Origin: a virus
Virus record (IMG/VR): IMGVR_UViG_3300040810_000354
Span: 1 to 29,781 of that record
DNA length: 29,781 nucleotides
Direction: 5' to 3' (one strand)
A model generated the notes under the pieces. It saw nothing but the letters and a program-made list of their open reading frames with translations. It was not told the DNA's origin and made no database searches. Made by a program: the position numbers and the translations under genes. This document shows, one piece after another, positions 521-28,735 of this stretch. Every line of letters begins with the position of its first letter. Position 1 is the first letter of the stretch.

Positions 521-796
521 TTATTTTTCTAGTTCTTGAATACGCTTTTCAAGCTCATCAATCTTAGCAGTAATCTTTGGATAGCGTTTACGCCAAGCAT
601 CCTCTGGTTGCTCTAGCCAGGTTAGTCCCCAGCGTTCTACTAGAAAATCAACAATCTTATCAAACTTTGCATATCCCCATAAGCCTACTCTTGTAGTACT
701 TAAATAGGCTAAACAGGCAGCACCTGCAATACTACCTGCTATACTTGTATAAATCCATAGACGATCGCTCGCCATACGTTCAATCATTTCCCACAC
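521..796 (-). CDS. Small single-pass membrane protein with C-terminal coiled coil
   Basis: I do not recognise this protein of about 91 residues. It has one hydrophobic segment near the N terminus (WIYTSIAGSIAGAACLAYL), an aromatic middle part and a charged heptad-like C terminus (IDELEKRIQELEK), so a membrane-anchored, possibly oligomeric protein is likely. The open frame extends to a TTG at 811, but a GAGGAG sequence lies just upstream of a GTG at 796, so I chose that start; ATG at 787 is another option. It is the last gene of the unit carrying the Paa-like genes, and its start region adjoins the stop of the PaaD-like gene, suggesting translational coupling. Confidence 0.6.
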   Translation of the reverse strand: MWEMIERMASDRLWIYTSIAGSIAGAACLAYLSTTRVGLWGYAKFDKIVDFLVERWGLTWLEQPEDAWRKRYPKITAKIDELEKRIQELEK

Positions 797-807
797 ATTC
801 CTGCTCC

Positions 808-1119
808 TCAAATTTGAATGCCGTTAAGACGCATTTTTTCCTTTACTTCATCTGTTACCATGTCTCTATCCCACGGCAAATGAAATGCTAGCTCTACATC
901 TACAGTGCCTATGCCTGGTATAGCTGATAGGCAATCTCGAATGTCTTGTACTAGTCCTCCTGTGCCCGGGCACCCCATACATGGTATACAGACTTCTACG
1001 TGAACATTATTGTTGTCAACTGTAATGTCGCGTAACATGCCCATACTACTTATCGAAACAGGTACATGTGGATCGTTTACTTGTTCTAGTGATTGGCGTA
1101 TTTGTTGCTCTGTGATCAC
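808..1119 (-). CDS. PaaD-like MIP18/DUF59 family protein
   Basis: A protein of about 103 residues with the MIP18 (DUF59) fold pattern: an N-terminal helix leading to a V-N-D-P-H-V-P-V motif, a central Cys-rich C-I-P-C-M-G-C-P-G-T motif where PaaD proteins have T-P-T-Y-S-G-C-P-A, and a C-terminal segment (W-D-R-D-M-V-T-D-E-V-K-E-K-M-R-L-N-G-I) closely resembling the PaaD tail. Family members help install or mature metal centres, and PaaD is needed by phenylacetyl-CoA epoxidase. The GTG start at 1119 overlaps the TGA of the diiron gene (GTGA), which supports coupling; the frame could extend to a TTG at 1137. Being next to the PaaA/PaaC-like gene strengthens the call. The extra cysteines relative to PaaD are unusual. 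Confidence 0.78.
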   Translation of the reverse strand: MITEQQIRQSLEQVNDPHVPVSISSMGMLRDITVDNNNVHVEVCIPCMGCPGTGGLVQDIRDCLSAIPGIGTVDVELAFHLPWDRDMVTDEVKEKMRLNGIQI

Positions 1120-2036
1120 CAGAGCTCTGTACCCCAAGTTTCTGTTTGAACTTCTGTGATACTTGGAACTTTATGCTTACTACCACGTTTCCAAATAGCT
1201 AGTTGCTCTTCCCAGGTCATTGTGTCTTCATAGTCCCATTTACGTGTATCTTCATTTAAACGTATAGGAGCAGTATAATCTAACACAAACTTGCCCTGCT
1301 CTTCGTCATAGTGAGCTGGGACTTTAATTCCAACTTCTTCACTAAAGGGAACAACACGACTTAACCAAATCTGACGCATTTCGTCATTCGTTCCGCCACG
1401 AATTCTGTAAGTCTGTTGATCTGTTCTTGTCTTATGTTCATCGGGCAAACCAAACCATGCAGCGCATAATGGGAAATAAAAGTCAACGCACTCCTGCACC
1501 CTTCGTCTACTGTCTTCATCTTTATTCCAAAAGAACTTTGTCCAGCGTTCTCCATGACTAACATGGAAGGTTTCTTCAAAGTTTACTTTGCGTAAACCAC
1601 GTGCAAGAGGTGCGTAACTGCAATTCTCTTCTAGGTCAACAGTTGTAATGTATCCTGCTCTATCGCCGTAACACATACTTACTACAGTTTCGATATAGTC
1701 TTCGTGGGGGAATTCTAACATTTGGAATGTACGCCATTCTTCTGGATCACGCTCAAACAAAAATTCGTGTGTGTCATACCCGAAGTCTTCTAGCAGTCTA
1801 TACATTACCTGTGCATGACCTAGTTCGTCCTGACAAGCTGCTGCAACTGCTAGTTTATCTTCTAGTGTAGGTGAGTTTTTAATAGCAGGAAAATATGTTG
1901 GTAGTGTTACTACTTCCAAGTCTGCTGCGATATGAATAGTATTAACAAGTACATCCTTGTACCTGGTTGTCATTTCGTCCGGATCTTCTACTTTATATCC
2001 TGTTGCTAATTTTTCTTGCAATCCTTGTTCATTCAT
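1116..2036 (-). CDS. PaaA/PaaC-family ferritin-like diiron protein
   Basis: This 306-residue protein matches the phenylacetyl-CoA 1,2-epoxidase PaaA/PaaC family. It has a helical ferritin-like core with a candidate ligand Glu near residue 41, a first E-x-x-H in Q-D-E-L-G-H (E71, H74) and a second in F-E-E-T-F-H (E155, H158), plus a further acidic helix around 111-125. PaaA is the catalytic diiron subunit and PaaC its metal-free partner; retention of both E-x-x-H pairs favours an iron-binding, possibly catalytic, protein. The frame reaches an earlier ATG at 2090, but those 18 codons overlap the upstream microprotein; the ATG at 2036 follows a GGGG stretch and the family-like sequence begins there. 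No PaaE reductase or second large subunit is visible in the window. The true substrate is unknown. Confidence 0.82.
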   Translation of the reverse strand: MNEQGLQEKLATGYKVEDPDEMTTRYKDVLVNTIHIAADLEVVTLPTYFPAIKNSPTLEDKLAVAAACQDELGHAQVMYRLLEDFGYDTHEFLFERDPEEWRTFQMLEFPHEDYIETVVSMCYGDRAGYITTVDLEENCSYAPLARGLRKVNFEETFHVSHGERWTKFFWNKDEDSRRRVQECVDFYFPLCAAWFGLPDEHKTRTDQQTYRIRGGTNDEMRQIWLSRVVPFSEEVGIKVPAHYDEEQGKFVLDYTAPIRLNEDTRKWDYEDTMTWEEQLAIWKRGSKHKVPSITEVQTETWGTELW

Positions 2037-2037
2037 C

Positions 2038-2175
2038 TTAACCCCAATCTGGAAATCGTACTTCCTCTTCTTCATGCAAGCAACCACCACAGTGACAATC
2101 TGTGCATACTAGTGTATCACAGTGACAGGGATGGTTACAGTTTTTACAGTAAATTCTTTGTTCTTCGCTCAACAT
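2038..2175 (-). CDS. Cys-rich microprotein, 45 aa, probable metal binder
   Basis: A 45-residue frame from ATG 2175, ending one base before the ATG of the diiron gene. It has eight cysteines in close pairs (C-K-N-C, C-H-C, C-T-D-C-H-C, G-G-C) with several histidines, followed by an acidic tail (E-E-E-E-V) ending in P-D-W-G. The spacing suggests one or two bound Zn2+ or Fe ions, or an Fe-S cluster. Its start overlaps the stop of the upstream Cys-rich gene by 7 nt. Its YCKNC-N-H-P-C-H-C core resembles YCNNC-G-R-P-S-H-C in that neighbour, suggesting a duplicated pair. I cannot assign a family. A role delivering metal or electrons to the diiron protein is speculation from position only. Confidence 0.62.
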   Translation of the reverse strand: MLSEEQRIYCKNCNHPCHCDTLVCTDCHCGGCLHEEEEVRFPDWG

Positions 2176-2348
2176 CCATTATCCTCTGGATGTGGCAAAT
2201 CTATTTTACATTTTTCGCAACGACAACATTTGCAGACTTCAATTTGTCCTAAATGTTTGTCCCAAACACTACGAAAATCTTCGAAAACTGGTGTGCCACA
2301 ATGGCTCGGGCGGCCACAGTTATTACAGTATGGTCCGCCCAAGATCAT
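2169..2348 (-). CDS. Cys-rich microprotein, 59 aa, probable zinc ribbon-like
   Basis: A 59-residue frame from ATG 2348. It has an N-terminal C-N-N-C with a following H-C, a charged middle region, and a second cluster C-K-C-C-R-C-E-K-C before a proline-rich end. Two C-x-x-C knuckles about 30 residues apart are typical of small zinc-ribbon or rubredoxin-like folds, though I cannot tell zinc from iron. It starts two bases after the stop of the exported Ala/Lys-rich gene and overlaps the 45-aa microprotein by 7 nt, so it belongs to the same transcript as the spanins and the Paa-like genes. Function unknown. Confidence 0.62.
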   Translation of the reverse strand: MILGGPYCNNCGRPSHCGTPVFEDFRSVWDKHLGQIEVCKCCRCEKCKIDLPHPEDNGC

Positions 2349-2350
2349 TG

Positions 2351-2689
2351 TTACTTGCTTTCTGCTGCTTTGGCTGCTTCTGCTGCTGCTTTCTTGGCTG
2401 CTTCTTTCTCAGCCTTTACTTTTGCATCTAGATCCTTAATGGCTTGTGCTTCCTTTTTAGTGGCTGCATCGCCCCATTTACCTAAACGCTTGGCTACTAT
2501 TTCTGGTAGGATACCCTTGGCCGCACATGCTTGAGCATCATTCATTGTACCCATAGCATAAACCTTGCCGCCGCTGTGGAAGTAGCCTTTATCATCATAG
2601 CCGCAATCGTCTCCCATTGCTGCATAGGTTGCGCTGCCTGCTGCAATAACTGCTGCTGCTGCAATTCCTGTAATTACATATTTTTTCAT
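2351..2689 (-). CDS. Exported Ala/Lys-rich protein of unknown function
   Basis: A 112-residue protein with a clear N-terminal signal peptide (M-K-K, then an Ala/Ile-rich core ending near A-T-Y-A-A). The mature part begins with an acidic Cys/Gly/Tyr region (D-D-C-G-Y-D-D-K-G-Y), has a second Cys in the D-A-Q-A-C-A-A-K-G-I-L-P-E segment, and ends in a long Ala/Lys/Glu helix that is probably extended in the periplasm. The two cysteines could form a disulfide after export. Its ATG overlaps the TGA of the o-spanin (ATGA), placing it in the lysis operon. I do not recognise a family; a periplasmic or cell-wall role during lysis is an inference. Confidence 0.65.
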   Translation of the reverse strand: MKKYVITGIAAAAVIAAGSATYAAMGDDCGYDDKGYFHSGGKVYAMGTMNDAQACAAKGILPEIVAKRLGKWGDAATKKEAQAIKDLDAKVKAEKEAAKKAAAEAAKAAESK

Positions 2690-3186
2690 TTAAATAGTCC
2701 TTTTATGCTGATCCCAGAACTTTTTTCAGTCTCAGACTTTGTCTTTTGATCTTCTGCGCTCTGCTTGGCATCGTCGATCTTCTTTTGCTGTTCGTCAATC
2801 GCTTTGTTTTGATCTTCGTAATAGTTCTTGTATGCTGCTATTACTGCTTTCTGTTGCTGTACTAGCTTCTTTAGTTTCGCAACGTTTACACTTAGATCTT
2901 CGTAGCCTTTGTCAGTAAGTCCAAATATTACTACGCTGTACTTTTTCTTTTCGAGGTCTTCCCAAACAGATTGAACATTCTCTTCTGTTACAATTATCCA
3001 ATTGACATCGTCTAACTTTAACACATCTACTGGTGGTAAGTCAAGTGGAACACGCTCTAGTGGTGCACTAACTATTTGAATTGGCTTTACACTTGAGCCA
3101 CACGCCGACAAACTAAGGAGTAGGAATGTAGTGAGGATTGGCCACGTCAGGGCACATACTGTTGATCTGACTCTTCTTCTCAGCAT
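2686..3186 (-). CDS. Outer-membrane lipoprotein spanin (Rz1-like o-spanin)
   Basis: A 166-residue protein with a signal peptide ending in a lipobox (L-S-A-C-G, Cys near residue 29), so the mature protein should be lipidated. It then has a Pro-rich start (P-L-D-L-P-P-V-D), a compact domain (V-N-W-I-I-V-T-E-E-N-V) and a long coiled coil from about residue 105. Its first 74 bases overlap the end of the i-spanin gene in another reading frame, the classic Rz/Rz1 arrangement. The two proteins would bridge the periplasm and fuse the membranes at the last step of lysis. It is longer than lambda Rz1, as is common for separated or partly overlapping o-spanins. The exact start within the overlap is uncertain. 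Confidence 0.75.
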   Translation of the reverse strand: MLRRRVRSTVCALTWPILTTFLLLSLSACGSSVKPIQIVSAPLERVPLDLPPVDVLKLDDVNWIIVTEENVQSVWEDLEKKKYSVVIFGLTDKGYEDLSVNVAKLKKLVQQQKAVIAAYKNYYEDQNKAIDEQQKKIDDAKQSAEDQKTKSETEKSSGISIKGLFK

Positions 3187-3601
3187 TGTCTTCTTTCTCT
3201 GTTAGTGGAGCACCACTTAATATCTCAAAACAGCGCATTACATTATTACTGCCTTTGCTTATAACCTTTTCTATAAGTCCAGGCTTTGCAATAGCACGTT
3301 CTCCAATGTCACGCTGACCAAGTAACTTACTTGTTTTATTAAACTTACCTCTGAGATCTTCAACCTGTTGTCTGCTAGCTTGGAACTCAGCGTTAAGTGC
3401 ATTTTTTTCTGCATTAACAGCGGCTATGTCTTTCTTCTGCTGTTCTATAGCCTGCTGTTGTGTTTGAACAGCAATCTCTAGCTTGGCATTGTTTTCTGCA
3501 AGAACACGCATGCGCTCTTGTGTATCCGTATAATACCAATAAGCACCTCCGCCCATTGCGAGCATTAGTATAAACATTATGCCTGCTAGTTTAAATCCCA
3601 T
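3113..3601 (-). CDS. Inner-membrane spanin (Rz-like i-spanin)
   Basis: A 162-residue protein with one N-terminal membrane helix (about residues 5-24) followed by a long Gln/Lys/Ala-rich coiled coil to about residue 95. The C-terminal part has cysteines and a Pro-rich end (H-Y-I-P-T-P). An N-in, C-out topology with a periplasmic coil is the i-spanin signature, and the overlapping lipoprotein gene supports it. Its ATG overlaps the stop of the upstream gene (TAATG). The endolysin lies two genes upstream on the same strand, so the lysis functions are grouped. No obvious holin is seen in the cluster. Confidence 0.72.
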   Translation of the reverse strand: MGFKLAGIMFILMLAMGGGAYWYYTDTQERMRVLAENNAKLEIAVQTQQQAIEQQKKDIAAVNAEKNALNAEFQASRQQVEDLRGKFNKTSKLLGQRDIGERAIAKPGLIEKVISKGSNNVMRCFEILSGAPLTEKEDNAEKKSQINSMCPDVANPHYIPTP

Positions 3602-9986: not shown

Positions 9987-10594
9987 CCGTTTCTTGGGAA
10001 AAATATCAAAAATATACAGTAAATCAGATAAAAAATGCTGAAGTTTGCTGGGAACCCTACTGGCATGTAGTGGTAGAAAACACACTCCATCCTGAGTTAT
10101 ACGAACTGTGTATGCAACATTGGCCCAATATGGCTACTAAAATGAGCCGTACCAACCCTGAGGGATTTAACCAAAACCGTGCAATCTACATACCCGAAAG
10201 TGGTAGTATAGACTTTTGGCAAGAGTACTACCATAACATTATGGAACATACAGATGTACAACGTGCAGTATATAGTTTAGAGGGGTTAGAGTACGAAGGT
10301 GATCGTTTGACAACCAGTGGCCTATGGGAAGATTATAAGGGCTACGGTGTAAACAATCATTATGACGGACATACTATTAACACTGCTTGGCAGATCTATA
10401 TGTACTGTGATGGTGGGGAACAGTGGGGGACTAGTATCACTGATGAACATGATAACGAAATAAAAAGGTTTCCGTTCCGTCCTAACTTTAGTTGGCTAAT
10501 GCGTGTAGATGCTTACAGTTGGCATCGTTGTGATCCTATACCTTGCAACTTGCGTCAGAGTATTATGACACGTTACATGTACAAACTTTTATAA
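9980..10594 (+). CDS. 2OG-Fe(II) oxygenase-like protein
   Basis: A 204-residue protein beginning at a GTG (AGGA about 8 nt upstream). The C-terminal half shows the double-stranded beta-helix pattern of 2-oxoglutarate/Fe(II) oxygenases: N-N-H-Y-D-G-H gives H-x-D (H127, D129), the distal His is in Y-S-W-H-R (H182), and R192 in L-R-Q-S-I-M-T-R-Y could bind 2-oxoglutarate. Such enzymes hydroxylate proteins, nucleic acids or small molecules. It stands alone on the plus strand, and its last 22 bases overlap the end of the convergent radical SAM gene. With the PhyH-like protein it gives two Fe(II)-dependent oxygenases near one cluster. The substrate is unknown. Confidence 0.68.
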   Translation: MSTVSWEKYQKYTVNQIKNAEVCWEPYWHVVVENTLHPELYELCMQHWPNMATKMSRTNPEGFNQNRAIYIPESGSIDFWQEYYHNIMEHTDVQRAVYSLEGLEYEGDRLTTSGLWEDYKGYGVNNHYDGHTINTAWQIYMYCDGGEQWGTSITDEHDNEIKRFPFRPNFSWLMRVDAYSWHRCDPIPCNLRQSIMTRYMYKLL

Positions 10595-11541
10595 ACTGTT
10601 TTAAGAGCAGATTCTGCTTGCTGATTGGTTTGTACACATTGATTTATCCATAAATTTTTCCAATTTGGAACACCCTTGTAAAGACTGTAATGATATTGTT
10701 CAGGTCTAGTCAGCACAGTCACATGCCAGTTCGATATATTTTGGCTATCGATCCAATTGGCAATATTTGGCACATCGTCTATGTTATCTTTTTGTAAAAC
10801 AGTATTAACCATAAAATTAGGATCTAGTTTATTCCTAAGTTTTATTATATTATCTTGTATTGTTTTCCAATTACAGCCTGTACGTATTTTTTCTATTACA
10901 GGCCCTATGCCATCTATGCTTAAGACAAAGCAAACATTTGAAAATCTAGCTAGTGCTTCTATCATATGATCAGTTAAAATAGTAGCATTTGTGTTTACTA
11001 CAATTTCACAATCTGTATTGGTAACATTGTTCAGAGCTTTGCTAAAAGATTTAATAAGAAAGGGTTCACCACCTGCAAGATAGATGCGTTTAGCATCTAG
11101 ATTTATGTCAATACTGTCTGGTTCCCAACTTTTATACACGTCGTTTTTTTGTAAAAATTCAGCCCAAGCACTGCTAGCATAAGGCCCACATGTTTGGCAT
11201 CTAAGGTTACAAAGATTACTATATCTTAAATCGTAACTTACCTCAGTGCAATTTTCAATCCAGTTTTGTATATCTAGATGTTTTAACCAATCCTTGGACT
11301 GATTTTGTCTTTCGCTTATTCTATTACTGGATTCACAAGCTACACATTTTACACATTCACGTACTGGGTTTCCTGCCAGCATGAGCTGGCGTACCTCATT
11401 TATCCTATCTTGTGTGACAGTTTCGTCAGAGTTACAGCATAACCGTTGTTTACCTCCTAAATCTACGTGCTTGTGTATAAAAGGTAAAACACAGAAACTA
11501 TCGCCAAATTTTAACCGGTTAAAAAGACTCATATTTGACAT
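10573..11541 (-). CDS. Radical SAM protein with Cys-rich N terminus (twitch type)
   Basis: A 322-residue radical SAM enzyme. The cluster motif is C-N-L-R-C-Q-T-C (C111, C115, C118), followed by the A-G-G-E-P SAM-binding motif near 156-160 and a partial TIM barrel (S-I-D-G). Before the core, residues 17-69 contain C-V-L-P-F-I, L-C-C-N and C-V-K-C-V-A-C, as in radical SAM proteins with extra N-terminal cysteines. Substrates of these phage enzymes are unknown; related proteins modify peptides or sugars. The start at 11541 overlaps the clamp-loader gene; an ATG at 11532 with ATGA overlap is equally possible. It is the last gene of the 18329-10573 chain. Confidence 0.86.
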   Translation of the reverse strand: MSNMSLFNRLKFGDSFCVLPFIHKHVDLGGKQRLCCNSDETVTQDRINEVRQLMLAGNPVRECVKCVACESSNRISERQNQSKDWLKHLDIQNWIENCTEVSYDLRYSNLCNLRCQTCGPYASSAWAEFLQKNDVYKSWEPDSIDINLDAKRIYLAGGEPFLIKSFSKALNNVTNTDCEIVVNTNATILTDHMIEALARFSNVCFVLSIDGIGPVIEKIRTGCNWKTIQDNIIKLRNKLDPNFMVNTVLQKDNIDDVPNIANWIDSQNISNWHVTVLTRPEQYHYSLYKGVPNWKNLWINQCVQTNQQAESALKTVYKSLYM

Positions 11542-12446
11542 AGCTCTACCAATGTTGCTGCCAAGTTGATCTCTTGATCCGCTACCATTGGAATGTTACG
11601 CAGGCCCTTGGCAATGATTAGCACTGCTTGGTCCTGTCCTTCCTGCGTATCACTCCACAGTTCTAAGTTGTCATACATCCAGCGAAACAGTTCGTCCATT
11701 TCATCTGCACGTACCTGACTACACAGGAGTTTACGTGCTTCCAACAGTTTGCCTTCTTTAAACAGGTCCACAACAGCCAGTCTGTAGTCTGCCATGGCAC
11801 TGTCGGACTCTTGGGGACGCACTAGTTTACCATCCACACTGTTCATCTGCACTAGGTTGATGCACTTGCGTAGATCAGGATATGTAGCCTTTACATAACT
11901 GTCCAGTGTATCAATGTCAATCTCAACGCCTTCAGTTACCAGCACTGTAGCAATACGTGCTGTGAACTCTGTGGTATCAATCTTTTCAATATGAAAACCC
12001 TGGCATCTACTGTGTAGCGCAGGAATAACCTTGTTAGGATAGTTACAAGTTAGGATAAAACGTGCAGTGCTTGAATACGTTTCCATTACACCACGTAGTG
12101 CTGCCTGTCCGTTTGGTGAAATATAATCTGCCTCATCGAGTAGTACAACCTTAAACTCACCAAAGGGCATAGTTGCTACAAAGTTAGTGATACGTTCACG
12201 CACGTTGTCTACACTATTCTCACGACTGGCATTGATCTCTAGTACATCAACATCCTGCACACCCAATTGATTGATTAGGATCTTTGCTAGTGTAGTCTTG
12301 CCTACACCCGGTGCACCGCTAAACAACAAATGCGGAATAGCACCACTCGTAATCCAACTTTCTACCTGATGCTTTTGATCGTTATCACGAAACACATAGC
12401 CTTCTAGTGTATCGGGTCTATACTTTTCTGTCCAAAGTTCTTTCAT
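11529..12446 (-). CDS. 44: Clamp-loader large subunit (T4 gp44-like AAA+ ATPase)
   Basis: A 305-residue AAA+ protein of the RFC/gp44 family. It opens E-L-W-T-E-K-Y-R-P, typical of the family, then Walker A G-A-P-G-V-G-K-T-T (44-52), Walker B with D-E-A-D (104-107) and the S-R-C arginine-finger motif (146-148). In T4, four gp44 subunits with one gp62 load the gp45 sliding clamp onto DNA. Neither gp62 nor gp45 is found next to it; it is wedged between an FkbM methyltransferase (ATGA overlap) and a radical SAM protein (13-nt overlap), an unusual place for a core replication gene. Confidence 0.95.
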   Translation of the reverse strand: MKELWTEKYRPDTLEGYVFRDNDQKHQVESWITSGAIPHLLFSGAPGVGKTTLAKILINQLGVQDVDVLEINASRENSVDNVRERITNFVATMPFGEFKVVLLDEADYISPNGQAALRGVMETYSSTARFILTCNYPNKVIPALHSRCQGFHIEKIDTTEFTARIATVLVTEGVEIDIDTLDSYVKATYPDLRKCINLVQMNSVDGKLVRPQESDSAMADYRLAVVDLFKEGKLLEARKLLCSQVRADEMDELFRWMYDNLELWSDTQEGQDQAVLIIAKGLRNIPMVADQEINLAATLVELCQI

Positions 12447-13210
12447 CTAAGTACTGCTTTCTCTATAGTGTCTGTACGATCTTGTACTGGCTTTAGATCT
12501 GTTTGTATTGGTGTAGGTGTACATAACCAATTTAGCACACCATGCTGCGGTCCAAACACATCCTCGCTGTTATGCTTATGATTGTTTGGATTGAACGTTG
12601 CACATGCTGCCCAATACATATTATAACTTAGATTGTCCAAGAAGTCAAACACCAAGCTGTTAAGGCTTGAGTCCTGCATTTCAATAAACAGTATAGGTCT
12701 GAAGTATGTAATAGTATTTTGAGCACCTTTGAGTACATTATACTCCATACCTTCTACATCAATCTTAATTAAATCAATGCGAGGAAAGCCCTTTATGTTA
12801 TCTAGTTTGGTTTGTACTATTGATCCACCGGGTCTTACTTTTGTTTTACCGTAGTCAAACTGTGTGCTAACTTCTTGTACGCTGTCGCTGAGGGCAATAG
12901 GATTAACACTGATCTTATGTGCAACGCCACGGTCCTGCATACCTATGTTTTTTACTAGTAGGTCATGGCATTCTGGATCAGGTTCAAATGCTACAACTTT
13001 GCTTACATGGGGAGCAAAGCCTAGTGTGTGCGAACCAACATTCGCACCTACATCTAAAACAAAACTATCCTTGTCTAGTAGTGCTAGCAGCAGATCAACT
13101 TCAAGGTAACAGTATTCTCCATAACAATCTAAACTCCGACCAATGGTAAGGTCATCACTAAAGATATACATGTTACCATGGCGAGTGTTAACTAGTTTTT
13201 GATTTCTCAC
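12443..13210 (-). CDS. FkbM-family SAM-dependent methyltransferase
   Basis: A 255-residue protein with a Rossmann methyltransferase core. Motif I is V-L-D-V-G-A-N-V-G-S-H, followed by an acidic strand end V-A-F-E-P-D-P, a later I-D-L-I-K-I-D-V-E-G-M-E-Y segment and L-F-I-E-M, which are hallmarks of FkbM proteins. FkbM-type enzymes O-methylate sugars, polyketides and other small molecules. It overlaps the coiled-coil microprotein by about 23 nt at its start and the clamp-loader gene by 4 nt at its end. It may methylate the product of the neighbouring aminotransferase and oxygenase genes, or cap glycan chains. Confidence 0.88.
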   Translation of the reverse strand: MRNQKLVNTRHGNMYIFSDDLTIGRSLDCYGEYCYLEVDLLLALLDKDSFVLDVGANVGSHTLGFAPHVSKVVAFEPDPECHDLLVKNIGMQDRGVAHKISVNPIALSDSVQEVSTQFDYGKTKVRPGGSIVQTKLDNIKGFPRIDLIKIDVEGMEYNVLKGAQNTITYFRPILFIEMQDSSLNSLVFDFLDNLSYNMYWAACATFNPNNHKHNSEDVFGPQHGVLNWLCTPTPIQTDLKPVQDRTDTIEKAVLR

Positions 13211-13340
13211 GTTCTAGTTCTTCAGTAAGTTCTTTGATTCTAATGTATGCTCGCTGTAGTTGTTCTTGTAGTTCGCCAACATTACGTTTAAGAATATCTT
13301 CTCTAACATGCGGAGGGGCTGCGATAGGCATATCAACCAT
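13188..13340 (-). CDS. 50-aa coiled-coil microprotein
   Basis: A 50-residue frame from ATG 13340, overlapping the stop of the Cpn10 gene by 8 nt and the start of the FkbM gene by 23 nt. After a Pro-rich start (M-P-I-A-A-P-P-H-V) it forms one continuous amphipathic helix (L-Q-E-Q-L-Q-R-A-Y-I-R-I-K-E-L) with heptad spacing, so it is probably an oligomeric helix. Coding potential is supported by the tight overlaps on both sides. Function unknown. Confidence 0.6.
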   Translation of the reverse strand: MVDMPIAAPPHVREDILKRNVGELQEQLQRAYIRIKELTEELEREKSKTS

Positions 13341-13704
13341 CCACTGCCTCTAGTGTTTGATGTCCCATGCTTGGTGCAAATACTTCGTCTTGTGGACGTT
13401 CATCGCTGGTCATTAGAATGTCCTTTGGATCTACTGTACGATGTGTTTCACCGTTTAGTTCAAAACCTCTGCTCCAACGGCCATGTGCTACTAGTACCCA
13501 TTCTCCTACACTAACATCAGTTTGTTCGTGCCCAATCTCAACTACCTGTGCCCAGCGTGGATGAATACCTCTTAGTGTTGCATCGTCGCCCGGGATAATA
13601 AGTCCACTAGCAGTGCGTACTTCATCAAACTTCATTTCTTTAACTAGTACCCCATCGTGTAGTGGACGGAACGTACCTGTAACTCTAGTATTGCTAATTG
13701 GCAT
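13333..13704 (-). CDS. Cpn10/GroES-like co-chaperonin
   Basis: A 123-residue protein with the Cpn10 fold pattern: F-R-P-L-H-D-G-V-L-V-K near the start, a mobile-loop-like T-A-S-G-L-I-I-P, a G-x-V-V-E-I-G-H segment and V-G-E-W-V-L-V-A-H-G. It would cap the host GroEL chamber, as T4 gp31 does when folding the major capsid protein. No GroEL is present in the window. GGAG precedes the ATG, and a sigma70-like promoter lies inside the end of the PP-loop gene upstream, so it can be expressed apart from the late chain. The C-terminal 30 residues extend beyond the usual Cpn10 length. Confidence 0.83.
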   Translation of the reverse strand: MPISNTRVTGTFRPLHDGVLVKEMKFDEVRTASGLIIPGDDATLRGIHPRWAQVVEIGHEQTDVSVGEWVLVAHGRWSRGFELNGETHRTVDPKDILMTSDERPQDEVFAPSMGHQTLEAVDG

Positions 13705-13723
13705 TTATAAATCTCCTTTTTTA

Positions 13724-14842
13724 CTATTCTACACTTGACAAGCAATATTGTCTACCTTTGATTTTATTCATATCCATTTTATCTTTATTAATTAATTGCC
13801 GTTGCCGGCCTTCTGCAATAATGGGTATTACTACTCCATACATGTATTTTTTAAACAGATCTGGTACATATTTTCTTAAATGCTGATATACTAAACTGTC
13901 TTCATTGGCTGCACTTGTAAGAACATCATGTCCAAGTCCCTGCATTTTGTTTGGTTGCCAACTTTGATCAAATCTTAATCTGCAACTTGCCTCTAAATGT
14001 TCTCTAAGCGTTCGACCTTTTACAACTAGGGTAATACCCTCACTTAATCCGCCTATAGATGCTACGTTTATCTTGTGTCGAGTAAAATAGTTTTTGACCA
14101 TATGACATTGTTTTACATGTAATTCCGGCATATCTTTACTTGTAAAAAACCATTCTCCTACTAGGTTAGTTGCTGTTCCCCAGTGTGTTAGCAGTGTATA
14201 CCACTTTTTTTCCTTGTAAGACATCACTGGCTTCAAGTCGCCAAATATGTGAGCAGTTGTGCCTTTACGTATCATTAATCCCTCGTCATATTCACTAAAG
14301 TCTTCAACAGTGAAACGGCGCATCATACCTATTGTGCCATTATAGGGAGTATCTATCCATTGCTGTTTATTGCTAAAATCACTTAGTATTCTATCAGTTA
14401 TATTGTTAACTGTCATTTTTGTTAGCGGTATTATTTTGCTATAACTACGCATTTTTTGAATTGCTAGTTCAATATCTTTTAATGGTGCGTCATTGTTATT
14501 AAAACACATGCGGTTAACAACTACTTCGTCCAAATGCACACCGCTGTTAATAAAACTCTGTAATACAGTATCACTATCACTACCACCACTATAGTAAAGG
14601 ATAAGATAGTTATATTTGTCTCGAAGTTGTCTGCACCTCCTGCCCAGCAGTTCTTCAAATGTTTCAGTAGGTTCCTTAGTCCAGTTCACAGTATCCCAAA
14701 ATCCAGCATCATGAACAACTTCTAGATCATTCATGTTTTCTCCGCTTGTCATTACCTCAAGTTTTGTAGAGTAGTATTTTTTTGTAGTTCTACTATAAAC
14801 CTGGATTCGCTTGTCATCCTGGATGTTGAAAATATTCTTCAT
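13724..14842 (-). CDS. PP-loop (asparagine-synthase-like) ATP pyrophosphatase
   Basis: A 372-residue protein with a PP-loop motif L-I-L-Y-Y-S-G-G-S-D-S-D at residues 79-91 (S-G-G-S-D-S at 85-90), which binds ATP and adenylates a substrate. It lacks the N-terminal glutaminase domain with catalytic Cys seen in full asparagine synthetases, so it may use ammonia, a sulfur donor or another nucleophile. The C-terminal 200 residues do not match a family I can name. It overlaps the DegT gene by 4 nt. Together with the degenerate paralogue at 16731-17852 it suggests an amide- or amidine-forming step in the cluster. The substrate is unknown. Confidence 0.78.
   Translation of the reverse strand: MKNIFNIQDDKRIQVYSRTTKKYYSTKLEVMTSGENMNDLEVVHDAGFWDTVNWTKEPTETFEELLGRRCRQLRDKYNYLILYYSGGSDSDTVLQSFINSGVHLDEVVVNRMCFNNNDAPLKDIELAIQKMRSYSKIIPLTKMTVNNITDRILSDFSNKQQWIDTPYNGTIGMMRRFTVEDFSEYDEGLMIRKGTTAHIFGDLKPVMSYKEKKWYTLLTHWGTATNLVGEWFFTSKDMPELHVKQCHMVKNYFTRHKINVASIGGLSEGITLVVKGRTLREHLEASCRLRFDQSWQPNKMQGLGHDVLTSAANEDSLVYQHLRKYVPDLFKKYMYGVVIPIIAEGRQRQLINKDKMDMNKIKGRQYCLSSVE
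13726..13754 (-). promoter_or_regulatory. sigma70-like promoter for the Cpn10 gene
   Basis: Minus-strand TAGACA (13749-13754) and TAGAAT (13726-13731) with a 17-bp spacer, 22 bp before the ATG at 13704. It overlaps the 3' end of the PP-loop gene. TAGACA is the same -35 hexamer used upstream of the 240-aa gene. Confidence 0.55.
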
Positions 14843-15978
14843 ACTTTATTTGCAACACTAATGATTGTTTGTTTGTTCTCTTCTGTTAGGTACTCATGTA
14901 AGGGGACAATAACAAGTTCGTTAGACAATCGCCGTGCATACGTATAGTCTACACTTGCACACTTTTCAAAGGCTGGCATATCAGGAAAACAAGGATAAAC
15001 ACTCACTCCTATACCTGCCGCACTGAACTCTGCGGCCGCTTCTCTTGCACTTAGATTCTTTGTAAAGAATCCAAATCCTGTACAGACAGTGTTTTCGCCT
15101 TCTAGTGTTTCACGTTTGATTTCTTCATTAAACAACTTGTTATTCATTCTGCGTATTGCACGTACACCTGTTTCATCCATGATAGTCATGTCTTCTGCAA
15201 TAATACGTGCAGTAGTGTCATCCATACTGCTCTTGGTAGCAGGTGCAACAAATCCATTACGGTTCTTGTTAAAGCCCTGTTGTGTCACTTCCTTCATGCG
15301 ATCCAACAAACGCTTGTTACTAGTTGCTACTGCACCGCCTGTGCCTGTGCTTGCAGGATGCTTGGCAATGTCAAAACTGTAGCAGACAATATCACCATAG
15401 CCTGGTTTACATCCTGGATCATCCATGTAAAATGCGTTGGCTGCATCTTCAATAACCACCATGTCGTCTGGAATTACTCTACACAAGTCTTCAACGTCCT
15501 GTACTCTGCCTAACAGGTGTACAGGCATTACAACTTTTGCATCTGGATGAGTATCAATACATTCAGCAAGACTTTCAGGACACATCATCGCATCCGGGCC
15601 ATTATCACAGAATACTACTTCTCTGCCAATCCATTGAATATTTTCTGGAGTTGCAATAAATCCCCATGCAGGAATAATAACTTTATCGCCAGGTTTGGTT
15701 GTTACTGCAAGAGCTGCTTGAATAGAGTCACTACCACAGTCAGTAAAATGCCAGTAAGGTATACCGCTGTAGTGTACACAACGATCAGCTAGTGCTTGTC
15801 TGCTGGGTGTATATGTATCACTACTAGGGCCGGCGCTTAACCAATCACTGATAGTATCTAATCCTAGACGATAGGCTTCTGTGTACCTGTCCTTGTACTT
15901 GTCGATACGCAGTTTGTAGGCAAAATATGGTACGCCGCCTCCTGTATTCTTCTGGTGTTTGTCAGCTGGTTGGTTCAT
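14839..15978 (-). CDS. DegT/DnrJ/EryC1/StrS-family aminotransferase
   Basis: A 379-residue PLP enzyme. The fold I pattern is visible: D-C-G-S-D-S-I-Q-A-A-L (phosphate cup, around 80-90), P-A-W-G-F-I-A-T, V-I-E-D-A-A-N with D178 contacting the PLP ring, and Y-S-F-D-I-A-K-H with the Schiff-base Lys at K206, followed by G-T-G-G-A-V. The family makes amino sugars from keto-sugar nucleotides. Start and end overlap PhyH (17 nt) and the PP-loop gene (4 nt). No sugar dehydratase or glycosyltransferase is in the window, so precursors must come from the host or from elsewhere in the genome. Confidence 0.9.
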   Translation of the reverse strand: MNQPADKHQKNTGGGVPYFAYKLRIDKYKDRYTEAYRLGLDTISDWLSAGPSSDTYTPSRQALADRCVHYSGIPYWHFTDCGSDSIQAALAVTTKPGDKVIIPAWGFIATPENIQWIGREVVFCDNGPDAMMCPESLAECIDTHPDAKVVMPVHLLGRVQDVEDLCRVIPDDMVVIEDAANAFYMDDPGCKPGYGDIVCYSFDIAKHPASTGTGGAVATSNKRLLDRMKEVTQQGFNKNRNGFVAPATKSSMDDTTARIIAEDMTIMDETGVRAIRRMNNKLFNEEIKRETLEGENTVCTGFGFFTKNLSAREAAAEFSAAGIGVSVYPCFPDMPAFEKCASVDYTYARRLSNELVIVPLHEYLTEENKQTIISVANKV

Positions 15979-16738
15979 TTTTAAAATCCTTATTCATAGT
16001 ATAACGGATATAATCTATTCCTGCAATATCATAATCTTCTACAGGTATGTAATCTTCTTGCCAATAGTCTGTGTTTGTGTTGGAGCCACGTGCAGTAATA
16101 GCACTTGGATTACTAAACATTTGTATTCTACAACTAGGCTTACAATATCGTGCTACTACTCCAACTCTATACTGTGAGCTTTGATTTGGCCCACTACGGT
16201 GTAGTAGTTTTATATGATGCATACTAAACTCTCCAGCATCTAATTCTGCATGTACTGTAGGGTAGCGTCCTTCTACTGTTTGTCCGCGTGGTAGCAGATT
16301 GTTATGATCTAAATTGTGAATATGATCGTAGTCTTGTAAATGACTTTCGGGGACATATTCCAAACAGCCTGTGGTTTTGTTTGACCCGTTAAGTGCTATC
16401 CAAACACTTGCCACATTGTCAGGCTCTGTTGGATCAAAATACAAACTATCTTCGTGCATGCTCACGTATTGTCCTAGCCTAGGCTGCTTTACAAAAAAAG
16501 TGCTGCTGAAGCACAATACATTTGGTCCTAAAACAGTTTCTATCACATCGAGTACACTTGGTAACAAACAAATATCTCTCACCCATGGCAGAGCTGTGTG
16601 TGTTTTAAATGCAACGTTATCTCTAATATAGTCTGCTCCTAGTTCGTTTTCGGCTTCAATATATTTTGCAAAGTAAACCTGAGCCTGTTCATCTGACATT
16701 GCGCGATGAGGAAAACTATATCCTTGTAAGCTATACAT
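15962..16738 (-). CDS. PhyH-family Fe(II)/2-oxoglutarate dioxygenase
   Basis: A 258-residue protein of the phytanoyl-CoA dioxygenase family. Iron ligands are H95 and D97 in Y-V-S-M-H-E-D-S and the distal His in L-L-H-R-S-G-P-N (H180), with R191 in Y-R-V-G positioned for 2-oxoglutarate. The middle part (V-W-I-A-L-N...G-C-L-E-Y-V-P-E-S-H) is typical of the family. Such enzymes hydroxylate or halogenate small molecules. It overlaps the asparagine-synthase-like gene by 8 nt and DegT by 17 nt, so all three should be co-translated. It probably hydroxylates an intermediate of the cluster; the substrate is unknown. Confidence 0.88.
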   Translation of the reverse strand: MYSLQGYSFPHRAMSDEQAQVYFAKYIEAENELGADYIRDNVAFKTHTALPWVRDICLLPSVLDVIETVLGPNVLCFSSTFFVKQPRLGQYVSMHEDSLYFDPTEPDNVASVWIALNGSNKTTGCLEYVPESHLQDYDHIHNLDHNNLLPRGQTVEGRYPTVHAELDAGEFSMHHIKLLHRSGPNQSSQYRVGVVARYCKPSCRIQMFSNPSAITARGSNTNTDYWQEDYIPVEDYDIAGIDYIRYTMNKDFKNEPTS

Positions 16739-17852
16739 ATCTGTTTAAAGTTTCTCTGAGGGTGCTTGTCCAACGTCCACATTCAAATTGAGCCAGTGTC
16801 TTAATAGCTCCATTACTAAGGTTAAACTTTTTTAGATATCGAATGTTATCGAATATTTGTTTACTTTCAATTTCAGGGTGTATAATATCACTAGAGTCTT
16901 CACTGCTGATGAATGAAGTATCTTGGCATAACATTTTTTGCAGGCTGCGATTCTTGAGATCTGTATTACCTGCTAGGACACTTGAGGTAATTGTTAGGTT
17001 ACTAAACGGATCAATCCACTTGGTATAGGTATTTAGTTCAAATATACTGTTACGGGTGGTATTCCTTGTTATTACATTTGTTGTATTGGAGTACCCAAGC
17101 TGCCAAAATTTACTATGACATTCATATATCTCCGCATCGTTACCCCTTAGAATAACATCAAAATCCAAAGGACTAGATGTCATATACATATGCTGTATGT
17201 TAAAATGGTTATAATCATGCACACTATAATCTTTTACACGACTACAAACATTGTCCAATAATATTACATCTTCTGAGATAGTTTTAACTTTCGTGGGCGT
17301 TTTACTTTTAACATTTACTAATGTAGTTTTTTTGCCGAGAATATTACACGCATTTAGAATTGCATGACTATCCCACCCGTCGCCAAACATAATTGCAATA
17401 GATTTATTTCTAGTGTTTATTTCTATAGTCTCAAGGAACTGGTTTACTAGTTCTTCAGTTGTTCTAAAGAGAGGAACAAGTTCTTCTGTTGTTTGCACTA
17501 ATTCACAGTTATCAAAACAGTCATAGTACTTTGGATCAAAGGGCACTAAATTTTCTGATAGTAGAGTAAGCAAAACATATAATTTTTCATAATTAATTTT
17601 TGCTTTAAGATCTAACGGATCGTTGGAATAGTCTACGCCGTTTGTATATAATGGATAACCTAAATTATAACTTACGCCGTGCTTTACAGTCTTGTCTAAG
17701 TAAAGGAAACTATATTGTCCGCGTATACTACCTAAATCGTCAGACTGTATCTTTTTTATAACCTCTGAAATTTCTTCCGTGAAATAACCTTCCCAGAAAA
17801 GTTTTCCAGAATTATTTGTTGCGACAGCAGTGCCATCTATGTACTTGAGCAT
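16731..17852 (-). CDS. Degenerate asparagine-synthase-like protein
   Basis: A 373-residue protein whose architecture recalls asparagine synthetase: an N-terminal beta-rich part (G-S-I-R-G-Q-Y-S-F-L-Y-L-D-K) like a class II amidotransferase but lacking an N-terminal Cys, then a PP-loop position at 156-162 reading F-G-D-G-W-D-S instead of S-G-G-x-D-S. Loss of the first Ser/Gly suggests altered or lost ATP binding; the conserved D-S argues that some binding function remains. It starts three bases after the stop of the virion-like gene and heads the enzymatic part of the chain. It may be an inactive partner of the PP-loop protein at 13724-14842. Confidence 0.66.
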   Translation of the reverse strand: MLKYIDGTAVATNNSGKLFWEGYFTEEISEVIKKIQSDDLGSIRGQYSFLYLDKTVKHGVSYNLGYPLYTNGVDYSNDPLDLKAKINYEKLYVLLTLLSENLVPFDPKYYDCFDNCELVQTTEELVPLFRTTEELVNQFLETIEINTRNKSIAIMFGDGWDSHAILNACNILGKKTTLVNVKSKTPTKVKTISEDVILLDNVCSRVKDYSVHDYNHFNIQHMYMTSSPLDFDVILRGNDAEIYECHSKFWQLGYSNTTNVITRNTTRNSIFELNTYTKWIDPFSNLTITSSVLAGNTDLKNRSLQKMLCQDTSFISSEDSSDIIHPEIESKQIFDNIRYLKKFNLSNGAIKTLAQFECGRWTSTLRETLNRYV

Positions 17853-27076: not shown

Positions 27077-27382
27077 ATGCTAAATAGTTTTATGCTTATA
27101 GAAAGTTATACATCATATGGGCATCACACTAGAGTACGTAATGGTCGCAAGGAAACTGTTAGGACCCTGGCAACATACTACAGGTTAAAGTGCGATCAAT
27201 GCGATGCTGAGTTTAGTAGACCTAGCAAACAATACAAGCATCGCACACAAACACATTACTGTAAAGAATGTTACACTAAGAATCTAGCACAATCAAAGAG
27301 TGCTCAGTCAAGGAGAATAAACAGATATGTCGATGCGTTTGACGCTAGTAGCGGCAAGCCTTTGGGTACTTTCAAGTTATAG
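27077..27382 (+). CDS. Small zinc-ribbon protein
   Basis: A 101-residue basic protein. A C-D-Q-C pair and an H-Y-C-K-E-C pair about 22 residues apart, with further His residues between them, form a zinc-ribbon or HNH-like metal site. The N terminus has Y-T-S-Y-G-H-H-T-R-V-R-N-G-R-K-E, which I believe is shared by a small family in marine T4-like phages but cannot name. Nucleic-acid binding is likely from the basic charge. Its 3' end overlaps the protease gene by 56 bases. The start is uncertain: ATG 27077 or the in-frame ATG at 27092, neither with a strong ribosome-binding site. Confidence 0.68.
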   Translation: MLNSFMLIESYTSYGHHTRVRNGRKETVRTLATYYRLKCDQCDAEFSRPSKQYKHRTQTHYCKECYTKNLAQSKSAQSRRINRYVDAFDASSGKPLGTFKL

Positions 27383-28376
27383 TACTGCACAGGCTAGTTT
27401 TGCAGACATTGTAGATAAAACTATTAAGAGTGTTTGCTTAGTAACCTTTGGAGAACCAACTGTAGTTATAGACAGTGAGGGCGAAAGAAAAGAAGACTTT
27501 CCTAATAGTCCATTCAATGAATATCTAAAGAAGAAACAAGAGCAACGTCCACAAGGCGGTTCTGGAACTTGTTTTGTCATTGAAGCAAATGGGAAAAAGT
27601 ACCTACTAACTAACCAACACGTTGCCAGTACAGCGTCTCAGTCATACAAAGTAACCTTTTACAAGATGATAAAACATCATCCTGCAAAATTAGTTGCTAA
27701 TGATAAGTTAACAGATCTTGCACTTCTTGAGATGGAGAAAACTGAAGGTCAACGTATTCTAAAGACAACACCCGCACTACCTTGGGGCGATAGTTCCGAA
27801 CTACGTAGTGGCGATAGTGTTTACGCTATTGGCCATCCTCTTGGTATGGAATGGAGTGTAAGTAGAGGAATTGTTAGCAATCCTAGTAGACGCTTACAAA
27901 ACACTTGGCAACCTGTAATACAAACAGATGTTGCTATTAATGTAGGTAATAGTGGAGGACCGCTGTTTAATCTGCAAGGAGAAGTAGTAGGCGTAAACAC
28001 CTTTATATTCACACCAGGACAAGGCGGAAGTGTCGGCGTTAACTTTAGTGTAGACGGTAATCAAGCTCAGTATATTATAGACAGCCTATTAAAATATGGA
28101 AAAGTAAAACGTAGTAGGATGGGTCTTGCTTACATTGTTGACAAGGACAAAGGTGTATTACGTGTTGAAATGGTAATGACTGATAGCCCTGCTGAACGTG
28201 CTGGAATTGAAAAAGGTGATGTTCTTCTTGGAATCAATAAAAGGCTTATCAAATCTAGTAGAGATATAGGCAATGTATTAGATAAAGTAGAAGCTGGAAC
28301 TGCTATTGACATAATAGTAGAACGCAATGGTATGGTAATGTTAAAGGAATTGATTACCGGAGAAATGATTGATTAG
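27327..28376 (+). CDS. Exported HtrA/DegP-like serine protease with PDZ domain
   Basis: A 349-residue protein. It has a signal peptide (cleavage near A-Q-A-S, residue 23) and a trypsin-like S1C domain with catalytic His98 (T-N-Q-H-V-A), Asp130 (K-L-T-D-L-A) and Ser209 (V-G-N-S-G-G-P-L), followed by one PDZ domain (about 250-345: G-L-A-Y-I...S-P-A-E-R-A-G-I-E-K-G-D-V-L). HtrA proteases degrade or remodel misfolded proteins in the periplasm. A complete exported copy in a phage is unusual and could help virion assembly at the membrane, lysis, superinfection exclusion or envelope stress. GGAG lies about 11 nt before the ATG. The gene overlaps the A-type carrier gene at its 3' end by 4 bases. Confidence 0.92.
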   Translation: MSMRLTLVAASLWVLSSYSTAQASFADIVDKTIKSVCLVTFGEPTVVIDSEGERKEDFPNSPFNEYLKKKQEQRPQGGSGTCFVIEANGKKYLLTNQHVASTASQSYKVTFYKMIKHHPAKLVANDKLTDLALLEMEKTEGQRILKTTPALPWGDSSELRSGDSVYAIGHPLGMEWSVSRGIVSNPSRRLQNTWQPVIQTDVAINVGNSGGPLFNLQGEVVGVNTFIFTPGQGGSVGVNFSVDGNQAQYIIDSLLKYGKVKRSRMGLAYIVDKDKGVLRVEMVMTDSPAERAGIEKGDVLLGINKRLIKSSRDIGNVLDKVEAGTAIDIIVERNGMVMLKELITGEMID

Positions 28377-28735
28377 GCAGAAAATGATTCGCCACAGCCG
28401 CATTGTGCTGTAGCCATTGGATTTTTTACTTTAAGGAAACTGCCGCCTAGTTCTTGTACGTAATCTATTTCGCTACCAAGTAAAAACATTTCAGCTATAG
28501 GGTCGACTACAAGGATACCCTCAATAGGGTCGCTCCAGACCACACTATCATCTGTGCAATCCTTACTTAACCCCCAAACATACTGCATACCCGAGCAGCC
28601 ACCACCTTTTACAGTCAATGTAACATGCCCTTCAGGACATACTGACTTCAAGTAGTTCTTCGCTGATTCTGATACTGTTACTAGCATGTTTGCAATCTTC
28701 TCCGCATACACATTGTGGTAAAAACTCTGGATCAT
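28373..28735 (-). CDS. A-type Fe-S cluster carrier (IscA/ErpA/HesB-like)
   Basis: A 120-residue protein of the HesB family. The three conserved cysteines are present: C47 in G-G-G-C-S-G-M and C112/C114 in Q-C-G-C-G, with V-T-V-S-E-S-A-K near the N terminus. It would bind and transfer an Fe-S cluster, perhaps to the radical SAM protein or to host enzymes. The ATG at 28735 has AAGGA 7 nt upstream; an ATG at 28687, matching the usual family start, is an alternative without a clear site. The gene overlaps the 56-aa Cys protein by about 100 bases in another frame and meets the HtrA gene end to end. Confidence 0.88.
   Translation of the reverse strand: MIQSFYHNVYAEKIANMLVTVSESAKNYLKSVCPEGHVTLTVKGGGCSGMQYVWGLSKDCTDDSVVWSDPIEGILVVDPIAEMFLLGSEIDYVQELGGSFLKVKNPMATAQCGCGESFSA

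Follow-up and report, generated by a model that had tools for sequence, protein, structure and literature searches.

The stretch of DNA considered here, a complete IMG/VR viral record of 29,781 bp (IMGVR_UViG_3300040810_000354, the window hereafter), carries on its minus strand two adjoining genes related to the paa oxygenase genes of bacteria. The first encodes PaaA', a PaaA-type ferritin-like diiron catalytic subunit of 306 amino acids (aa) (1116..2036), the second PaaD', a MIP18/DUF59 (FeS_assembly_P) protein of 103 aa with a GTG start (808..1119). We put at about 0.6 the probability that the two are an auxiliary metabolic module from a bacterial operon, supplying an A subunit and a maturation factor to the PaaB' and PaaC' proteins of the host.

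During infection the phage would express PaaA', to which some lineages add PaaD', and PaaA' would dock on the PaaB'/PaaC' scaffold of the host, replacing or topping up the A subunit of the host PaaA'B'C' whilst PaaD' helps with iron loading. Electrons would come from a host reductase, and the hybrid complex may then sustain the epoxidation or hydroxylation of a coenzyme A (CoA) thioester, the oxygenated products of which could pass via enoyl-CoA hydratase to central metabolism as a source of carbon and energy. Alternatively, the phage would gain from the clearing of an intermediate that is toxic or traps CoA. As with cyanophage psbA, the one subunit supplied would be the catalytic and presumably damage-prone one.

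With psbA and psbD a cyanophage supplies the host photosystem, a complex of many subunits, with nothing but a catalytic-core subunit. The enzyme and pathway of PaaA' are different, and functional replacement is here something that we infer, but if PaaA' does dock on host PaaB and PaaC then the logic of replacing a core subunit extends to aromatic or acyl-CoA oxidation. Of a multicomponent CoA-ester oxygenase, two mutually unrelated groups of phages, one of them marine and T4-like, have each acquired the catalytic subunit alone, and the findings suggest that a phage thereby contributes a single functional component to a host enzyme made of several.

Family, fold and active site of PaaA'

An earlier note on the window had recognised a PaaA/PaaC-family protein with both E-x-x-H iron pairs, and this is borne out by a match to PF05138 (PaaA_PaaC) at 5e-50 (170.6 bits, cut-off 28.5), with the pairs at E71-x-x-H74 and E155-x-x-H158. 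Identity to E. coli PaaA is ~25%. The iron ligands of the E. coli protein are E42, E72, H75, D126, E155 and H158 (PMC4498308), and all six are present in PaaA', E41 and D125 completing the two pairs. They are kept across the PaaA' sequences compared, the exception being a truncated phage copy without H74. This copy (L020:814-1689) is missing 14 residues including H74, through either decay of the allele or a fault in the assembly.

The lysine bridge of PaaA, K68-E49, is replaced by A67/Y48 in the window PaaA'. Every PaaA' checked, phage or bacterial, has A (in one phage, S) at the first position and Y at the second, whereas canonical PaaA sequences retain K68/E49. Against TIGR02156, the PaaA equivalog model, PaaA' scores 114.2 bits (5.7e-33), below the cut-off of 280. 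Because this cut-off is missed and K68/E49 are replaced, PaaA' is, judged from its sequence, not a phenylacetyl-CoA epoxidase, in keeping with the suggestion of the earlier note that phenylacetyl-CoA need not be the substrate. With the ligands kept and the bridge replaced, the oxygenase site is predicted to be intact, with details of substrate or electron transfer unlike those of phenylacetyl-CoA epoxidase.

A single-chain AlphaFold (AF2) model of PaaA', built from an alignment of 21 sequences, has a predicted local distance difference test score (pLDDT) of 83.8 and a predicted template modelling score (pTM) of 0.85; a first model from 19 close homologues only had a pLDDT of 56, which became 84 when paralogues were added. 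The best Foldseek matches to the model in the PDB are PaaA chains, 3pwq_D (E 2e-13, template modelling score, TM, 0.78) and 3pw8_C (TM 0.79), followed by PaaC and then BoxB (TM ~0.57, query-normalised), and a viral structure library held nothing at E 1e-3 or better. PaaA of the E. coli paaABCDE epoxidase (PDB 3PW1, 3PWQ, 4IIT) has the same fold and six ligands. SSO1313 of Sulfolobus (PDB 4mud), a single-domain protein of the PaaA_PaaC family, is matched by both sequence and fold, although it is archaeal and shorter.

The ferritin-like fold, together with NrdB adjoining PaaA' in two of the genomic contexts described below (II and III), could be taken to indicate a role other than oxygenation, such as iron storage, O2 or peroxide scavenging or protection of the NrdB diiron centre. 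Such a role is very improbable given that the nearest structures are PaaA, not ferritin or rubrerythrin, that PaaA' has the PaaA-specific C-terminal arm, that conservation with the catabolic-operon orthologue extends over the whole protein and that in half of the contexts nrdB is not close by. The earlier note had named beforehand two outcomes that would tell against it, a structure lacking the diiron site and a tree position among non-oxygenase ferritin-like proteins with no linkage to the MIP18 gene; the model matches PaaA, the tree groups the gene with oxygenase A subunits and the linkage to PaaD' holds.

A bacterial operon with PaaA'

The closest cellular relatives of the phage PaaA', at 74-82% identity, are in marine alphaproteobacterial metagenome-assembled genomes (MAGs), an Acidothermales MAG and the cultured Amycolatopsis alkalitolerans, with copies at 71% and 57% in two further bacterial genomes. 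In 8/8 bacterial genomes from two phyla, of some marine Alphaproteobacteria and Actinobacteria, an operon surrounds PaaA' in the order TetR, PaaA', PaaD' (MIP18), PaaB', PaaC', zinc ribbon, nitroreductase, enoyl-CoA hydratase and acyl-CoA ligase (L025:4236-9199, L030:4108-9999, L038, L069). The nitroreductase occurs in the marine operons and G716 and the ligase (AMP-binding) in some operons; the L027 sequence ends short of the downstream part, and zinc ribbon and hydratase are counted only where the sequence reaches.

PaaB' (~90 aa) belongs to PF06243 and PaaC' to PF05138, with PaaC' having K, N/S and T/A at three glutamate ligand positions where PaaA' retains all six ligands, the same split between catalytic and scaffold subunit as in canonical PaaA and PaaC. 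Bacterial PaaA' thus has the same partners as E. coli PaaA, namely PaaB, PaaC and PaaD. Unlike in the E. coli system, PaaD is split into the MIP18 gene and a separate zinc-ribbon gene, PF23451 (Zn_ribbon_PaaD), which is the C-terminal part of canonical PaaD, and the phage has A and D only.

No canonical-strength PaaA/PaaC pair was found in the four marine genomes examined, and two actinobacterial genomes hold both the canonical and the PaaA' systems, hence the operon is predicted to be a separate paralogous system. Its substrate is likely an acyl-CoA, since CoA ligase and hydratase genes lie within it. A PaaE-like reductase found elsewhere in marine bacteria was rejected as a partner, as it lies beside two small genes in what is seemingly a benzoate-dioxygenase (BenABC-type) locus. 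No account of a bacterial PaaA'B'C'D' operon was found in the open-access literature, and the findings thus point to an apparently undescribed oxygenase operon.

In the E. coli complex PaaB serves as the bridge, and purified PaaA is soluble only together with PaaC (PMC4498308). Amongst positions invariant in bacterial orthologues, 144 as defined from seven sequences with identity down to 57%, 128 are retained by all 19 phage PaaA' copies; for the C-terminal arm the figure is 15/19, and a region-by-region check of phage PaaA' conservation found no relaxed region. Because the bacterial operon is complete, E. coli PaaA alone is insoluble and 128/144 sites are kept, PaaA' is best regarded as one subunit for a host complex.

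The same retention bears on the possibility of dominant interference, in which phage PaaA' displaces host PaaA' and so diverts or blocks the pathway, or works in the deoxygenating direction, with gains such as preventing toxic epoxides or freeing CoA. PaaABCE can deoxygenate its own epoxide, and epoxides are toxic (PMC4498308), whilst the carriage by phages of the active-site subunit alone would also suit this explanation. It is nonetheless distinctly unlikely, as a loss of catalysis is improbable with the ligands and almost every invariant site retained, and nothing favours a changed direction.

PaaA' across phages

PaaA' is found on at least 22 other viral contigs at 83-98% identity, and a scan of viral sequences for distant homologues by alignment added none to this set. 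One of the contigs, of which L022 and L073 are two parts, also carries PaaD'. The phage sequences form one clade (ultrafast bootstrap 94) that is sister to marine alphaproteobacterial PaaA' (100). Between phages the ratio of nonsynonymous to synonymous substitution (dN/dS) is ~0.01-0.07 where synonymous sites are unsaturated, the out-of-frame rows of L030 being left out of the comparison, and the GC (guanine plus cytosine) fraction of phage PaaA', 0.41, is close to that of the phages (0.40), unlike that of the bacterial loci (0.49). PaaA' is therefore a host-type gene amid phage genes, under purifying selection and of bacterial origin, as is expected of a phage auxiliary metabolic gene.

At least four genomic contexts are occupied. 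In context I (window, L002, L003, L004, L021) the order is lysozyme, spanins, Cys59, in some Cys45, PaaA', PaaD' and a transmembrane protein, where Cys59 and Cys45 are cysteine-rich microproteins; it repeats in L002, L003 and L004, and the L021 contig ends inside PaaA'. That this arrangement is not due to chance is shown by its recurrence and by the conservation of PaaA' given above. In context II (L005, L006, L007, L016, L020, L023) PaaA' follows NrdA and Grx/NrdB and precedes the zinc ribbon ZnR67, in context III (L018, L019) it lies between a divergent NrdB (47%) and ZnR64, and in context IV (L008-L012, L014, L015, L017, L022/L073) it follows UvsW, with a lysozyme next in L013. In two divergent phage groups, PaaA' lies a few bases behind nrdB and is then followed by ZnR67 or ZnR64 (L016:6797-9103, L018:6998-9107). 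The UvsW of context IV is nearest to those of Methylophilales and Pelagibacter T4-like phages and cyanophages.

With dN/dS this low, at least four contexts kept and PaaD' recruited repeatedly, it is scarcely credible that PaaA' is a chance passenger without a selected function, even if the degraded L020 copy might be expected of one.

In a collection of 50,697 annotated phage records no PaaA was left after mislabelled bacterial DNA had been dropped. 'Acinetobacter phage MD-2021a' (CAKLQH020000001.1 / CAKLQF020000001.1) was rejected, it has a full paa operon and looks like a mislabelled bacterial chromosome.

Capture of the A subunit alone

A per-record count of PF05138 proteins gives exactly one in all 11 PaaA' records searched, and likewise in the 8 with canonical PaaA. 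No PaaB was found in 20 viral records (~1.1 Mb) by a profile search that does detect bacterial PaaB, PaaC' is absent from the scan of the viral collection, and no Fer2 reductase or ferredoxin was found in the 13 viral records searched. A scan of viruses for canonical PaaC also found none, although it is a weak one as PaaC is poorly conserved, the per-record PF05138 search being stronger. The viral records searched therefore lack the PaaB and PaaC alongside, and the PaaE-type reductase, that make up PaaABCE.

Canonical PaaA, with K68/E49 kept, occurs alone on 8 further viral contigs of up to 281 kb (L074-L081; 6001-6825, in L081 2757-3581), which the genes around it, those for ribonucleotide reductase, head-tail adaptor, homing endonuclease and dCMP deaminase, mark as phage. 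None of the eight has PaaB, PaaC or PaaD. The paaA gene comes after nrdAB in L076, L079 and L080. An N-terminal CxxC-CxxC extension is present in the L076 and L079 proteins, and the longer open frame of L080 suggests the same. Because the PaaA' clade and the canonical-PaaA phages are separate and both without PaaB and PaaC, their sequences indicate at least two independent captures of a lone A subunit.

The earlier note had proposed a compact oxygenase, and whilst its Paa-type diiron subunit stands, the stand-alone part is less supported. PaaA' would then act without PaaB and PaaC like BoxB, PaaD' loading the iron and a small Cys-rich or zinc-ribbon protein replacing the PaaD zinc ribbon or passing electrons, on a substrate that could be phage-specific, a nucleotide, tRNA, lipid or acyl-CoA. 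The benzoyl-CoA epoxidase BoxB shares the diiron CoA-ester oxygenase fold and works without a structural partner subunit, although it has ~470 aa against 306 aa in PaaA', and is a monomeric homologue (PMC4498308). The lack of PaaB and PaaC in 19 viral records, the N-terminal CxxC-CxxC extensions, the position of PaaA' or PaaA in several phages, right after nrdAB or a short way beyond it, and the small Cys-rich or zinc-ribbon gene that adjoins PaaA' in three contexts, and is otherwise very rare there, all fit. A stand-alone enzyme remains rather doubtful, given the completeness of the PaaA'D'B'C' operon, the insolubility of E. coli PaaA noted above, a phage PaaA' still ~82% identical to its PaaA'B'C'-operon orthologue and context IV phages without an adjacent Cys-rich gene. 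The further version in which PaaD' and the small protein replace PaaB, PaaC and PaaE, giving a self-sufficient minimal diiron oxygenase with a phage-relevant substrate, would cover the lone canonical PaaA too; it is unlikely, and if true would be a new oxygenase architecture.

Supply of a subunit to a host complex, which is preferred, has several points against it. As the phage contigs are incomplete, the absent subunits may be encoded outside them, and most PaaA' contigs have no detected PaaD', though these are short. The operon is rare, being found in 2/385 Alphaproteobacteria, 1/297 Actinomycetia and 5/27 of one order sampled, no PaaE-type reductase is linked to it, and the host is a presumed one.

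PaaD' and the small cysteine-rich proteins

The PaaA' and PaaD' genes share exactly 4 nucleotides (nt) (1116-1119), the overlap with a PaaD-like MIP18 gene that the earlier note had described. PaaD' matches PF01883 (1.8e-17, 63.8 bits, cut-off 23.5) and has a CxxCxxC motif (C44, C47, C50) without the zinc-ribbon tail. It scores below cut-off on every PaaD and SufT model, with 60.8 bits over the MIP18 part only against the cut-off of 108 for TIGR02159, the PaaD equivalog. In vivo PaaABCE depends on PaaD, which probably aids iron insertion (PMC4498308).

Every viral PaaD' of this kind that was found lies on a PaaA'-bearing contig (window, L002, L003, L004, L015, L017, L073, G002), which supports a functional link of the MIP18 gene to the phage-borne oxygenase subunit. 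It adjoins PaaA' only in context I; in G002 the two are 22 kb apart. In a tree resting on ~105 sites the context-I genes fall outside a clade of marine-bacterial and other phage PaaD', which is suggestive of PaaA'-carrying phages having acquired PaaD' at least twice. PaaD matches in Listeria and Staphylococcus were set aside as only ~29% identical and unannotated.

Phage PaaD is not new in itself. It had earlier been reported as a novel auxiliary gene of T4-like marine viruses (Nishimura 2017, PMC5332604), likewise a MIP18/PaaD protein with Fe-S genes, and freshwater viromes list one PaaA and four PaaD coding sequences (PMC9554406). No account of PaaA' with PaaD', or of lone-A capture, was found in the open-access literature. 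Nishimura 2017 (PMC5332604) interprets PaaD as part of Fe-S metabolism, with no mention of PaaA in the text consulted, whereas here PaaD' is tied to PaaA', offering a functional reason for its presence in these phages.

The two Cys-rich microproteins upstream, the downstream membrane protein and the position behind the lysis genes are all present on the minus strand, as the earlier note had reported. Cys59 (2169..2348; 59 aa, 8 Cys), a possible zinc- or metal-binding partner, adjoins PaaA' also in L002, L003, L004 and L021, and in G001 is the sole small protein with two CxxC motifs besides PaaD'. In contexts I-III PaaA' has as a neighbour a small double-CxxC protein, of a kind otherwise nearly absent from G001 and G002; no Cys-rich gene adjoins PaaA' in context IV phages. 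These proteins may stand in for the zinc ribbon missing from PaaD'.

Cys45 (2038..2175; 45 aa, 8 Cys) overlaps the Cys59 gene by 7 nt and is 1 nt from that of PaaA'. Its place in the module is doubtful, because homologues lie away from PaaA', by ~5-6 kb in L007 (2565-2711, on the spanin side) and L018 (1568-1732), which suggests a different role, perhaps outside the module.

Other genes of the window

The gene content of the window, which includes tail-fibre-like proteins, a clamp loader, lysozyme and spanin-like genes, is that of a large myovirus. The Paa-like genes lie behind a lysis cassette, all on the minus strand, with phage lysozyme (4149..4592, PF00959 4.2e-11), i-spanin-like (3113..3601) and o-spanin-like (2686..3186) genes matching PHROG Rz-like spanins (the pair phrog_812 and phrog_739) and, on the cassette side and outside the module, a signal-peptide protein of 112 aa (2351..2689). 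The PHROG search gave no meaningful match for PaaA', PaaD' or the microproteins.

Beyond PaaD' is a small transmembrane/coiled-coil protein (521..775, minus strand; 84 aa from ATG), a neighbour for which an alternative TTG start at 811 would give a 4-nt overlap with PaaD', and of which a 37-42% homologue lies four genes downstream of PaaA' in context II. It is followed on the same strand by a membrane protein gene that runs off the end of the record. An A-type Fe-S carrier (ErpA/IscA-like, 120 aa; 28373..28735, minus strand; PF01521 9.9e-13, TIGR00049 above cut-off) is possibly of related iron metabolism, and is not claimed for the module.

The minus-strand block at 10573-17852 encodes a radical SAM protein, the clamp loader, an FkbM methyltransferase, a DegT aminotransferase, a PhyH dioxygenase and two unassigned proteins of ~370 aa, a possible cluster for sugar or small-molecule modification. 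At 27327-28376, on the plus strand, the phage encodes a DegP/HtrA-like secreted trypsin-PDZ protease.

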